From positions 1 through 64,000 of the forward strand of contig JAAELL010000025.1 of assembly GCA_024226735.1 (NCBI GenBank): a DNA stretch of 64,000 nucleotides. The letters are read 5' to 3'. This DNA is from a bacterium. GTDB taxonomy: Bacteria; Planctomycetota; UBA1135; GCA-002686595. Below the pieces are notes generated by a model. The model was not told the DNA's origin, made no database searches, and was given only the letters and a program-made list of their open reading frames with translations. Shown here piece after piece: positions 2,490-57,466 of the stretch; positions within the stretch are counted from its first letter, which is position 1, and every line of letters starts with the position of its first letter. The translations under genes and the position numbers were made by a program.

Positions 2490-5294
2490 ATGCGCACGAC
2501 ACTCCTCCTCGCATCGATCCTCGTCGCCACCGCGTCCGCCCAGACAACGCGCTCGATCGGCGACCGGGGAGCGGAAGTCGGATTGAGCGAGAACTGGACG
2601 CCCAAGGTCATCAATGCGGCGATGGGCGACGATCAGTTCATCGGCACGAAGTCCCTGCGCAACTCGTTCCTCGTCCTGCTCGAATTCGACGCGTACTTGG
2701 AGAACGAGGCGGACTTTCGTCGCCGCCTGCAGATGCACACGGCGGGCATCGAAGCGAGTGGCTCGAACACGGTACTGGGCAAGTTCACGTACCGTTCGGA
2801 GGACGGCGTCGGGCGCGCGCACCAGCCCGCGTCGACGGAGATGGGCAACGGGGTCGAGATCCGCTACGACCTGACCCTCGTCGGCCGCGATGGCCTGGGC
2901 TACCTCGTGCTGCTCTGGGGCGCGGACCGCAGCGCCGGCAGCCTGAAGCACGAGGGGGATCGGATCGCGAACGCGCTGCGCTTCCCGCCACCGGATTCGG
3001 ACTGGGGCCGTTCGACGCAGCTGCGGGTGCGCGAGAAGCGCTTCGACGGCTACACGCTGCGCATCCGCGTGCAGGACTCGGTGTTCAAGGAGTCGACCTA
3101 CGCCGGTGATGCGTTCTTCAGCTTGGCGACGGCCGAGGACGAGATCGTCGCCTTCTTCCTCACGCTCGAGGACATGGACCTCGACGACGCACTCGACGCG
3201 GCGCACGAGACGCTCGTCTTCTCGTACCCGGACCTGACCGAGCGCAAGCGCTCGTCGACGACACTCGCCGGACGCGAAGCGCGTTTGGCGACGTGCGCGA
3301 CAGGCGATGAGAGCCTGACGATGGAGCTCGCGGCGATCCAGATCGCGCCGGGGCTCGCGCTCGACTTTCGCGTCCTCTACGAGGGGCCGCCCGGCGTACG
3401 AGAGGAGCTGTACCGGGGCTTGCTCGAGAGCCTCGTGGTCGTCGATCCACCGACGGTCGATGCATTCCCCGTCCCCGAGGCGACGCCGGACCCGCCGAGC
3501 GTCAACGCCCACCAGCGCGAGTGGCTCGAGGCCGCCCGACTCATCGGCTGGATCCCCGCCGGAGCCTCGGACGCCTCGCTCGCCCCCGGTGATGGGATCC
3601 TCGTCGCGCACGAAGACGGCGTCGACCTCTTGCGACCCGGCGCGGACGATTCCGAGCCGCTCCGTCGCGACGGCGAGTGGCAATTCGACCGGCGCGCGGC
3701 CGCCTGCGCGGAAGAGACCTTCATGGTCTCGGGCGACGGGGAGCTCGTGCGCATCGCCGACGGCACGAGCACTCCGACCGGCGCGCGGGCGACCGCGATC
3801 ACGGCCGCGCCAGGTGGCGGGCTCTTCCTCGTGCGCGCGGCGCCGCTGCGGAACGTGGCCGGGATCGGACAGATCGAATCGGCGACTCCGAGCACGCTCG
3901 TGCATCGCCGCCCGAGCGGGGACGAGGTCGTCATCAGCAGCTTCGTGGATCGAACGCTGCTCGACGTCGCAACCGATGCGTCCACGACCCGCGCCCTGGT
4001 GACGTCGGTAGAACGCAGCGCGTACACGACGGTGCGCTTGACGTCGGTCGACCTCGGTTCGGGCGCGCAGCGCACGCTCGGCGAATGGACGCGAGTCCGT
4101 CACCTCGGTCCCGCGCCGAACGGCTGGCTCGTCACCGGAACGCCGGTGTCCGGCGCCACAGGGATCTGGCGCGTGGCGGGTGACGGCGCGCCCGAGCTCC
4201 TCGTCAGCGGTCCGCAGCAGCTCGGCGTCGCTCTGCGTGGAGGCGAGCTCGTGCTCACGTCTTCGCTGTTCCTCGCGCCCCACTCGGGCAGGGAAGGCCG
4301 GATCCCCGTCTACTCCATCGCGGTCGACGATGTGCTCCCCGCGGGCCCCCGGTGTGCGCCGTGGACCGCCGCGGTCTTGGGCGAGATCGGCAGCGCGGCT
4401 CTGGGCGAGCACGACCCGTTCGACCGGCATCTGTTCGGTACGCGCGCGTCCATCACACGCTTCCTCGACGAGGCGAGCCGAGCCTCCGAACGTTCGATCG
4501 GCGCTCCCCTTCCGCGCGACATCGACGCCTTCGACCCGCTGCTCGCGGCCATCGCAGGCGAACCTGGCCTCGGACAAGAGGGAGCCCTCGTGCTCGTCGC
4601 GCTCCTGTCGAACGCCCTCCTGGAGCAAGGCGCGGAGTGGATCGACGCGGTCGAACCGAACATGAACGGCTTGACGTGGGAGACCGTCGAAGAGTCGACC
4701 GATCTCTGCCTGGCGGTCTTGCCCGCCCAGACGGTCGCTCTGCTCCTGGAGGGGGAGAGCCAGGCGTCGTGGATCGTCGAAAGCGCGGCGGGGCGCTCAA
4801 TGCTGATCGGCACCGACGCCGCGACGTTGCGAACGGCACTCGCCAAGCGGGAAGGACCGGACTGGTGGAGCGCCGTCGAGGCCGGCGACGCCGAGGAGCT
4901 CCTCGCGATCCTCGCCGCGCACCCCGAGAACCTTCACTTGCGCGACCGCATCTACGCCGAGCTCGCGCGACGAGAGGATCTGGCGCCGCTCGGCGCGGTC
5001 GCTGGCCGCTTCGCTCGATCGAACGCCGCGCGGGCGCAGGACCTGCTCCACTGGTTTGCCGCCCGGCACGCGACGGACGGTGCGGCCCCGACGGTCGAGG
5101 AGCTGCGAAACGCCATCGGGAAGCACCCGCGGGCGGCTGGGCTGTACCACCTGCTCGGCCTGCGCTACGAGCTCACCGGGGGGGACCAAGCGCGGGAGAA
5201 AGCGCGCGTCTGTTTCGAGCGCGCACTCGAGCTGTCTCCCTGGGGGAACTTGGCCGAGCAAGTCCAGGCGGGACTTGGACGTACGAGCGACTGA
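2490..5294 (+). CDS. Large secreted protein with TPR-like C-terminus, unknown function
   Basis: 934 residues with a signal peptide ending near residue 18 (MRTTLLLASILVATASAQ). Residues about 30-165 and 170-310 look like two alpha/beta units that each begin with a short strand and contain an F-L-V-L/F-F-L-T-L-type core, as in secreted stress-response folds, but I cannot name them. Residues about 350-610 have repeating G-D-G and strand motifs suggestive of a beta-propeller. The last about 80 residues contain a TPR-like helical pair (LYHLLGLRYELTGG, ARVCFERALELSP). No catalytic motif was seen. It is divergent from 1309-2400. Just behind its stop lies the truncated module-B relic, so its 3' flank has been rearranged. 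Confidence 0.8.
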   Translation: MRTTLLLASILVATASAQTTRSIGDRGAEVGLSENWTPKVINAAMGDDQFIGTKSLRNSFLVLLEFDAYLENEADFRRRLQMHTAGIEASGSNTVLGKFTYRSEDGVGRAHQPASTEMGNGVEIRYDLTLVGRDGLGYLVLLWGADRSAGSLKHEGDRIANALRFPPPDSDWGRSTQLRVREKRFDGYTLRIRVQDSVFKESTYAGDAFFSLATAEDEIVAFFLTLEDMDLDDALDAAHETLVFSYPDLTERKRSSTTLAGREARLATCATGDESLTMELAAIQIAPGLALDFRVLYEGPPGVREELYRGLLESLVVVDPPTVDAFPVPEATPDPPSVNAHQREWLEAARLIGWIPAGASDASLAPGDGILVAHEDGVDLLRPGADDSEPLRRDGEWQFDRRAAACAEETFMVSGDGELVRIADGTSTPTGARATAITAAPGGGLFLVRAAPLRNVAGIGQIESATPSTLVHRRPSGDEVVISSFVDRTLLDVATDASTTRALVTSVERSAYTTVRLTSVDLGSGAQRTLGEWTRVRHLGPAPNGWLVTGTPVSGATGIWRVAGDGAPELLVSGPQQLGVALRGGELVLTSSLFLAPHSGREGRIPVYSIAVDDVLPAGPRCAPWTAAVLGEIGSAALGEHDPFDRHLFGTRASITRFLDEASRASERSIGAPLPRDIDAFDPLLAAIAGEPGLGQEGALVLVALLSNALLEQGAEWIDAVEPNMNGLTWETVEESTDLCLAVLPAQTVALLLEGESQASWIVESAAGRSMLIGTDAATLRTALAKREGPDWWSAVEAGDAEELLAILAAHPENLHLRDRIYAELARREDLAPLGAVAGRFARSNAARAQDLLHWFAARHATDGAAPTVEELRNAIGKHPRAAGLYHLLGLRYELTGGDQAREKARVCFERALELSPWGNLAEQVQAGLGRTSD

Positions 5295-54488: not shown

Positions 54489-54672
54489 GGCCCAATACTA
54501 GAGATTGCGTCAGGCAGTTGAACCTCCAGTCATGGCCCTTTGCGAGCCAAGCGGCCAAAGCACCCGTGCGGAGCGATCGGCACGAACTACACGGCCATCG
54601 CCCGTGATGCGCCGCGAATCGTGTAGTCTCGAATGACCTGACCCGTTCACTCCAGGAGACTCGGAGAGCTCG
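54489..54672. promoter_or_regulatory. Shared leader between the hydroxylase operon and the repeat-controlled gene
   Basis: 184 bp between divergent starts. ACTACACG (54586-54593) and CGTGTAGT (54620-54627) are perfect inverted half-sites 26 bases apart and could bind a dimeric regulator. GGAG occurs twice at 54655-54668, the second one fitting the ATG at 54673. Clear -35/-10 pairs were not identified. Confidence 0.3.
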
Positions 54673-55474
54673 ATGACCAAGCACTTCCCGCACCGCACGG
54701 CACCGCACGGCACGGCACGGCACGGCACGGCACGGCACGGCACGGACGTAGGCCGGGCCTTCGCGTAGTAGCGACAGTTCTATTCAGCAGTTTGGCAGTC
54801 CCCACGGTTCGCGGCCAGTCCACTTATCTCATGTGGGACTACCGCATCCGCAACGCTCCCAACGCGGGACCGACCGAGCTGATTCGCGAGTCTGAGGGTT
54901 ATGGGCTTGGGGGAGTCCCGTCGTTGGAGAGGGACAACCGGATCACGAGGAGAGTGTGGATCTTCAAGGGCAGCAATCCGGGTAACCCAGGCCTACCGGG
55001 AGCGCTCCCGGGCGTGCCGCCGAACTTTGACATCACGGTGCACATCGTCCTGGAAAACACGACCGCCATCGACGATGCGAACGTCTTTACGACAGGTACG
55101 TTCGACGACACGATCGAAGACATCATCCTGCGTGATGGGAGCGGAGTCCCTCTCCAGTTCACGAGTGGGGAGTACATACTCAACATTCCTTCGAACACAA
55201 AACGCCACGACCCCGAGACGAAAGTCCTGATCGACGTGCCAGAGCCCGCCTCGAACGGGGAGATGGCGGACTTCGAGATCGAAGAGATGCGGTTGCGCAT
55301 CGCTTCCGTGGAGTCCTCGGGTGTTGGACAGCAGTTGGGGCTAGGTTGGAACAATGTCACACGCTCCGCATCGAGAACGTCTGGCTGGGAGATCCCAATG
55401 CCGGAGGTACACCGATGCAGACCCCATTCGGCTGGAATCGCACCCTTCAGTGGATCATCGAGGAAGGGGAATAG
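54673..55474 (+). CDS. Candidate phase-variable secreted protein, out of frame as sequenced
   Basis: ATG at 54673 has GGAGA about five bases before it. Its frame enters the (CACGG)n tract and stops at TAG 54766. The frame downstream is a signal peptide (RVVATVLFSSLAVPTVRGQ) followed by S-T-Y-L-M-W-D-Y and about 190 protein-like residues. Removing one 5-base unit, or adding two, joins ATG to that signal peptide with an Arg/His-rich n-region. A second break near 55358 is needed to reach the natural C-terminus (HTLRIENVWLGDP ... RTLQWIIEEGE-stop at 55474); one C added to read GTCCACACG would do it. Without it the frame runs to 55502 in Arg/Ser-rich non-protein-like sequence. The stop at 55474 lies 9 bp before the next gene. 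Family unknown. Confidence 0.55.
54691..54745 (+). repeat. Pentanucleotide tract (CACGG)n in the start region of a secreted protein gene
   Basis: Eleven 5-base units: CACCG, CACGG, CACCG and then eight perfect CACGG copies (54706-54745). The unit length is not a multiple of three, so slipped-strand changes shift the frame between the ATG at 54673 and the signal peptide frame. The tract encodes only the n-region (H-G-T-A-R repeats), where length changes are tolerated. Confidence 0.9.
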
Positions 55475-55483
55475 GTGGCGCCC

Positions 55484-57466
55484 ATGTCGAACCGACTCAT
55501 AAGCCTCGTTCGAAGACATGCTCCGAACCTTGCTTGCTTCCCGGTCCTCTTGTCGAACATCGCGCTGGGGCAGTGCAACGAAACCGTCGTCGTTCCTAGC
55601 ATCGGCCTCAACAACGACGAGGCTGCCATACATCGACGTCTCGACGTCGACGGGGATACGATGGTCGTAGGATCTGCATTGCTAACCGTCGAGCAAGAGC
55701 TGGCCGTTGGTCTCGCATTTGTGTTCGAGTACCGCGACGGGACTTGGAACGAAACACAGATCCTGCGCTCCGGGCAGGTCTACCAGGGCCAACGCTTTGG
55801 CGGCACGGTCGCGATCGATGGCAATACGATCATGGTGGGCGCGATGGTCGGCCCCCCTATCATCCCCGGCGGTGGCCGCGTGTTCGTGTTCGAGAGACAG
55901 AACGGCTCGTGGGTGCAGACCCAGCAGCTGTTCGAGCCGACGATCCCCTTTCCTTCTACGCTGGACGGTTTCGGGCGCAACATCAAGATCCGCGGAGACA
56001 CGGCTTACATCACGAGCGGGTTCCGCCGCAAGACCGTCATCTACGAGCGCATGGCGGGGACGTGGGTGCTGGTCGACGAGATCACGGAGGACGACCTCGG
56101 CGCTTTCCCCCTGCCTGGCAACGTCAGCTTTGGCAACGGCTTCCTCGACGTCGAGGGAGACCGAATGGTGAGGTCCCACCTGTACACCATGATGCCGGCG
56201 CCCGTTAGCGTGCTCGAGTTTGACGGTACGTCGTGGCGGGGCGTCGCCTCCCTGACACCGCAAACTCCTGGGCAGCTCGAGACCAGTCCCTTCATCGCGC
56301 TGGAGGACGGGATCGTCTACGTCGGCTCCTCTTCCGAACAGGGTGGCTCCGGCGTCGTACGCGTGTACGAGGAGCAAGCTGGTTCCTGGGTCGAGACCCA
56401 GGTGATCAACCCCTCGATCCTGAACCCGGTCATGCGCTTTGGCGCCGCGATCGACGTACGTGGCGACACCCTGGTAGTCGGGGCGCCCAGCGACGACATC
56501 GACCCGGCTCAGAACGACAACAACGGCGCGATCTATCAGTTCACGCGCCGGAACGGGCAGTGGGTGCAGGACTTCCGCAGGACCACGGCGCACCCCCCGC
56601 CGGGCAACAAGGGTACTCTCGGCGCAACGGTCTTCATCCACCGCAACGAGATCGTCGCCGGCTCCCCTGCCGACTCCGATCCCGGGCGCGTGCACGTGTT
56701 CCCGTTGATCCAGCAGCAGGGCGTGCCTTATGGAACGGCGAACTCGAACTCGAGCGGCCTTCCGGCCCAGCTCAGCGCCACCGGCAGCGTCGTCGCGACA
56801 CACGACTGCCTGACACTCGAAGCGACTCATCTGCCGATCAGTCAGACCGGCTACTTCCTGACTTCGCGAACCCAGGGCTACCTCCCTCTGGTGGGCAACT
56901 CGCAGGGTGACCTCCTGCTCGCCGCCCCCTGGTACCGCTTCAGCCAGCACGTGCTCGAGACTGGCCCTGCTGGCGAGGTCTCCTTCGCGCTGTCGTTCGA
57001 GACGCTCCCGCAGGGGATCCAGTTCCAGCCAGGTGAAACCTGGAGCTTCCAGATGTGGTTCCGCGACGTGAACCCAGGGTCGACGTCGAACATGAGCAAC
57101 GGTCTCGCGGTCACGCTCGTCACGCCGGGGGATCCCGCGGTTCAGTTCCCAGTCACTCTCCGGCGGGAGATCGAGAACGCAGTCCAGGTCCCCGTCGAAG
57201 TCACGCTGTCCCAGCCCGCAGAAGGGAACGTGATCGTCCCCTACACCTTGGGCGGAACCGCGGCCGTCGGTGTCGACTGGGACATCGACCCGCCAAGTCC
57301 CGCCGTGATCCCGGCGGGCGAAACCTCCGTCACCCTGACGGCGACGATCATCGAAGACTCCGACGTCGAGGGCGAGGAGATCGCAACGGTGACGCTTGGC
57401 TCCCCGCTGGGCGGCGTTCCGGGAACGACGCTGGAGTTCCAGATCACGATCCTGGACGACGACTGA
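55484..57466 (+). CDS. Secreted FG-GAP-like propeller with module B and Calx-beta domain
   Basis: 660 residues from ATG at 55484; a GTG at 55475, directly behind the upstream stop, is possible. A long signal region runs to about residue 30 (ACFPVLLSNIALG). Residues about 45-420 hold FG-GAP-like blades with the pattern L-D-V-D-G-D-T-M-V-V-G, I-D-G-N-T-I-M-V-G-A and I-D-V-R-G-D-T-L-V-V-G-A-P. Module B lies at about 422-550 (Y-G-T-A-N-S-N-S-S-G-L-P-A, T-G-Y-F-L-T-S-R-T-Q-G-Y, P-G-E-T-W-S-F-Q-M-W-F-R-D). A Calx-beta domain follows at about 555-660 (VTLSQPAEGNVIVPYTLGG). This is the only copy where module B is not C-terminal. By eye its DNA is less GC-rich than most neighbours. Confidence 0.85.
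   Translation: MSNRLISLVRRHAPNLACFPVLLSNIALGQCNETVVVPSIGLNNDEAAIHRRLDVDGDTMVVGSALLTVEQELAVGLAFVFEYRDGTWNETQILRSGQVYQGQRFGGTVAIDGNTIMVGAMVGPPIIPGGGRVFVFERQNGSWVQTQQLFEPTIPFPSTLDGFGRNIKIRGDTAYITSGFRRKTVIYERMAGTWVLVDEITEDDLGAFPLPGNVSFGNGFLDVEGDRMVRSHLYTMMPAPVSVLEFDGTSWRGVASLTPQTPGQLETSPFIALEDGIVYVGSSSEQGGSGVVRVYEEQAGSWVETQVINPSILNPVMRFGAAIDVRGDTLVVGAPSDDIDPAQNDNNGAIYQFTRRNGQWVQDFRRTTAHPPPGNKGTLGATVFIHRNEIVAGSPADSDPGRVHVFPLIQQQGVPYGTANSNSSGLPAQLSATGSVVATHDCLTLEATHLPISQTGYFLTSRTQGYLPLVGNSQGDLLLAAPWYRFSQHVLETGPAGEVSFALSFETLPQGIQFQPGETWSFQMWFRDVNPGSTSNMSNGLAVTLVTPGDPAVQFPVTLRREIENAVQVPVEVTLSQPAEGNVIVPYTLGGTAAVGVDWDIDPPSPAVIPAGETSVTLTATIIEDSDVEGEEIATVTLGSPLGGVPGTTLEFQITILDDD

Follow-up and report, generated by a model that had tools for sequence, protein, structure and literature searches.

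Introduction

Contingency loci based on simple sequence repeats (SSRs) are known mostly from host-adapted pathogens. In Neisseria, the Opa proteins vary by means of CTCTT repeats located in the coding sequence of the leader peptide (PMC3745409). In Helicobacter pylori, the outer-membrane protein gene oipA carries CT repeats in its 5' region that undergo slipped-strand mispairing (PMC10564699). Ocean and soil bacteria were named as a knowledge gap by a 2025 review (PMC11868660). Among the papers listed in our search of the literature on phase variation and planctomycetes, no described case was found; the one planctomycete paper with the term uses the phrase in the sense of microscopy.

We analyzed a stretch of 64,000 nucleotides (hereafter the window) of a planctomycete contig, which belongs to a draft assembly of 9.0 Mb in 612 contigs. 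An initial annotation of the window had proposed that a pentanucleotide tract at the start of a gene, here called gene A, is the switch of a contingency locus. The layout resembles that of opa in that a pentanucleotide tract is located between the start codon and the mature secreted protein, the unit number sets the frame, and several paralogs have a tract of their own (PMC3745409). No sequence kinship with opa is implied, however. The unit is CACGG instead of CTCTT, the first domain of the mature protein has no Pfam match and no Opa homology, and the window tract encodes a hydrophilic n-region (HGTAR). The units differ between the paralogs of gene A, some paralogs have no tract, and we infer the switching. 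Similar to what is proposed for gene A, oipA has its translational frame switched near the 5' end, by slipped-strand mispairing, whereas its repeat unit is a dinucleotide, its protein is unrelated and its host-associated carrier is a pathogen (PMC10564699). Frame-switch tracts are of a known kind, and it is the setting that is unusual here.

Results and Discussion

The tract and its reading frames

A Shine-Dalgarno-like GGAGAG (54663-54668) is located 4 nt upstream of ATG 54673 on the forward strand, which also carries all the other features of the locus. Translation from this ATG gives an ORF of 31 codons (54673-54768) with the sequence MTKHFPHRTAPHGTARHGTARHGTDVGRAFA, closed by a TAG stop at 54766-54768. 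The tract begins 17 nt inside this ORF. Tandem Repeats Finder placed it at 54690-54745 with a period of 5, 11.2 copies of GCACG/CACGG and a score of 98, which made it the top array in the window. Its units read GCACC, GCACG, GCACC and then GCACG eight times, so that units 1 and 3 are variant and the last eight are perfect. This anatomy agrees with the eleven 5-base units, eight of them perfect CACGG copies, counted in the initial annotation, which had also correctly described the ribosome-binding site with its ATG, the stop at 54766 in that frame and a signal peptide in another frame behind the tract.

The signal peptide is encoded at 54747-54815 (RRPGLRVVATVLFSSLAVPTVRG, followed by QS). No stop interrupts its frame between 54642 and 55502, and the signal peptide together with about 180 residues of the secreted protein is read in a frame other than that of ATG 54673. 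When this frame was scanned up to the hydrophobic core for ATG, GTG, TTG, CTG, ATT, ATC and ATA, the sole start-like codon was TTG 54792, which is inside the core. The secreted product therefore requires the two frames to be joined. Frame arithmetic bears out the earlier statement that the loss of one unit or the gain of two joins them; changes of -4 and +5 units do the same. The tract thus places several perfect units, none of them divisible into whole codons, near the beginning of an ORF, and a change of unit number connects the start to a coding frame that has no alternative start.

The preferred mechanism can be outlined as follows. The tract, located in the n-region of the signal peptide of gene A, would be an element of slipped-strand phase variation, and gene A would head an operon with the downstream FG-GAP gene, gene B. 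Replication slippage would add or remove 5-bp units and thereby change the register of the signal peptide relative to ATG 54673, and one unit number in three would be ON. The assembled consensus, with its stop at 54766, is in the OFF state, as had been claimed; ribosomes would halt at this stop, and expression of gene B may be reduced by polarity. The ON product of the window copy would begin with the signal peptide and domain 1 and end in a frameshifted tail. Changes of unit number would take place in living cells, and the product of gene A is probably a surface or secreted protein.

Having its own Shine-Dalgarno sequence, ATG and stop, the 31-codon ORF could also be taken as a regulatory leader peptide, or the region as a structured RNA element, instead of a frame switch. 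No RNA structure beyond that of dinucleotide shuffles was found, however, the fold being less stable than the shuffles (z +1.7), and the downstream ORF does not have its own start that would include the signal peptide. We regard this explanation as very improbable. A sigma-70 promoter scan found no promoter.

Paralogs of gene A

The closest paralog, with 43-45% identity to the window gene, is split across two contigs, C215 and C279. In gene orientation, C279 opens with (GGACA)n, which runs directly into the signal peptide TGQCESNNVSRFALLVCCGLTMSSVASAQN. The end of C215 reads GGAGAGAAAGG, continuing to ATGCATA and then (GGACA)n, that is, a Shine-Dalgarno sequence, ATG, CAT, A and (GGACA)n. In the whole genome, four perfect GGACA units are found at these two contig ends only. 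Because of this unique shared tract and the matching orientation, the two contigs probably join into one locus. So joined, the paralog would have the layout of the window gene, namely a Shine-Dalgarno sequence, ATG, pentamer tract and signal peptide, with a different unit.

The layout proposed for the window thus recurs in a paralog. Because this sister gene combines the same layout with a different five-letter repeat, the window tract looks like a reversible on/off switch. We estimate a probability of roughly 0.55 that the window tract switches translation by slipped-strand mispairing, with the consensus in the OFF state, and belongs to a family with at least one other member switched in the same manner. 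The sequence evidence supports slipped-strand phase variation of the Opa type in a small family of secreted proteins. If this is true, paralogs that carry different pentamer units at one position would be a clear case of SSR contingency outside pathogens.

SSRs were also present in other members of the family. The C101 member has C11 inside the signal peptide, with the signal-peptide and mature frames off register by one base; the frame of the C72 member is broken at G8; and the C540 member has G11 at its N-terminus. The C94 and C449 members have no tract, and the C94 member is intact. No relatives of gene A were found in the 80 other genomes of the taxonomic family, in 391 others sampled across the phylum or in the GTDB genome contigs.

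The breaks of the C215 and C279 contigs within a tract can be read in two ways. Contig breaks at tracts are no more than suggestive of length variation. They could also be counted, together with the draft state of the 612 contigs and the very long poly-G stretches that end some contigs and resemble sequencing artefacts, in favor of an assembly or consensus error. In that case the unit number, or the junction at 55358 described below, would be wrong, and the gene would be in frame in most cells. At 56 bp, however, the tract would fit within an ordinary short read, it is interior to a contig that spans 64 kb or more, and the long ORFs of the window are otherwise unbroken. Even a count off by one would leave the tract and the paralog in place. 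An artefact of this kind seems improbable to us.

The sequence at C540 (L076:1-120) and that at the end of C11 (L138, about 5080-5214) are nearly identical and short, reading HFGRCVRVRCKAQRRRDFAASLGGG and onward. This contig-end sequence is possibly a dispersed repeat.

The gene A protein and the second frame break

Domain 1 of the mature protein is encoded at 54816-55358. Genome search and alignment assign it to a protein family restricted to the window genome, with 43-45% identity to the C279 paralog. The main members of the family consist of two homologous domains (hhalign, 97%). None of the gene A members scanned had a Pfam match above the cut-off, and a domain-2 profile found no match among PDB chains. 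The AlphaFold model of domain 1 alone had a pLDDT of 31 and was unusable. Between the window gene and the C279 paralog, dN and dS of domain 1 were 0.57 and 1.23, respectively (dN/dS about 0.46); the domain is under purifying selection and is constrained, but weakly.

A second frameshift in gene A, at about 55358-55364, was overlooked in the initial annotation. The break is located within 55353-55366, and its two flanks are in different frames. The paralogs carry about 210 codons between these flanks, from the end of domain 1 to near the end of domain 2, which are absent from the window gene. The end of domain 2 follows in the shifted frame at 55364-55474 (LRIENVWLGD, continuing to GWNRTLQWIIEEGE), with a stop at 55472-55474. 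Since these codons are additionally lost out of frame, a different unit number in the tract would not by itself bring back the full-length protein. With the tract in the ON register, the signal peptide and domain 1 are predicted to be retained. The coding sequence is therefore not intact in the ON state in the window gene, and the C215/C279 copy likewise has a break in its later part. The earlier proposal of a contingency locus is supported in part, with the C215/C279 layout and the SSRs in other members as independent evidence, but it is weakened by the second break and the loss of about 210 codons.

These facts can be explained in another way. The copies of gene A may be pseudogenes or genes under relaxed selection, with the tract being a neutral microsatellite that has grown in a disused gene and gene B being functional. 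The second break and the large internal loss in the window, together with the breaks in C279 and C50 beside intact FG-GAP genes and the weak constraint, make decay a serious rival. The C72 member is likewise broken next to an intact FG-GAP gene, and non-coding pentamer tracts occur elsewhere in the genome. The breaks in C279 and C50 are not at SSRs, which, along with the second break and the codon loss in the window, suggests decay. On the other hand, two paralogs with different units have the tract at the same position relative to the start and the signal peptide, an arrangement absent from 1248 other genes (see below). Conserved residues are kept on either side of the break in the window, including the WIIEEGE end, and the C94 member is intact. 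We consider decay of the whole family possible but rather doubtful. Under the preferred reading of a slipped-strand switch, the window copy may itself be partly decayed, dead or truncated, in a family that once switched or still does. The gene caller missed gene A in the window; this is expected of a frame-broken gene and is also compatible with decay.

Rarity of the tract

Pentamer tracts are generally over-represented in the window genome. Seven tracts of at least four copies were found in 1.37 Mb sampled from the genome, against none in an equally long order-5 Markov sequence, an excess not due to chance; the count is a biased rate because the sample was chosen partly for family members and poly-G loci. 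Four copies of CACGG have no second site in the 9.0-Mb assembly and none in the 80 other genomes of the taxonomic family. The 1248 genes called in 1.75 Mb of the genome include none with a pentamer tract of at least four copies within the first 75 nt. This result caps the background at about 0.24% per gene (95% upper bound, our own arithmetic). Among 127 (CACGG)n tracts of at least five copies, drawn from other genomes plus the window genome, the window tract alone is preceded by a Shine-Dalgarno sequence and start and followed by a signal-peptide ORF.

Pentamer tracts are also found away from gene starts. On C28, a non-coding purine-rich (AAGGA)n/(AAGGG)n array occupies the contig start (L196:11-151), near a tRNA-like sequence that is apparently a tRNA gene. 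An intergenic (TCAAT)n tract with variants on C101 (L078:2468-2505, about 27468) is located immediately upstream of the ATG of an unrelated gene. A non-coding (AACAG)n tract opens contig C11 (L138:1-28); no partner contig with the AACAG unit was found in the assembly.

The idea that poly-G/C tracts are special to the window genome was rejected, as they are common across genomes of its taxonomic family. About 10 of the 25 interior poly-G/C tracts are near gene starts, compared with a background of 10.5% for random positions, and this enrichment may be explicable by exclusion from coding DNA. Poly-C runs of 9-14 were observed no more than about 30 nt from the ATG in genes whose starts resemble signal peptides, at L150:9989, L154:81, L162:9971, L165:828 and L171:17164.

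Gene B

Gene B (55484-57466) encodes an intact secreted FG-GAP/Calx-beta protein, as judged from Pfam and the search of its own genome. FG-GAP_2 was matched at 8.9e-20, and Calx-beta was below the cut-off. Gene B thus belongs with the FG-GAP/Calx-beta secreted proteins, unlike the gene A members scanned. The own-genome search showed an FG-GAP-type neighbor likewise at the C279, C94, C72 and C540 paralog loci. Since the downstream FG-GAP genes are intact, a general sequencing error is unlikely. A broader picture would be a genome-specific, multi-locus phase-variable secretome in a 9-Mb bacterium outside the usual small-genome pathogens, in which paralogous secreted proteins are governed by different pentanucleotide or homopolymer frame switches at the signal peptide and each of these proteins heads an FG-GAP operon. 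We offer this extension tentatively and think it somewhat unlikely. The C-terminal part of gene B (about 56732-57118, with GDLLLAAPW and, further on, WSFQMWFRD) recurs more than 100 times in the genome, and from its sequence it looks like a common C-terminal module of secreted proteins.
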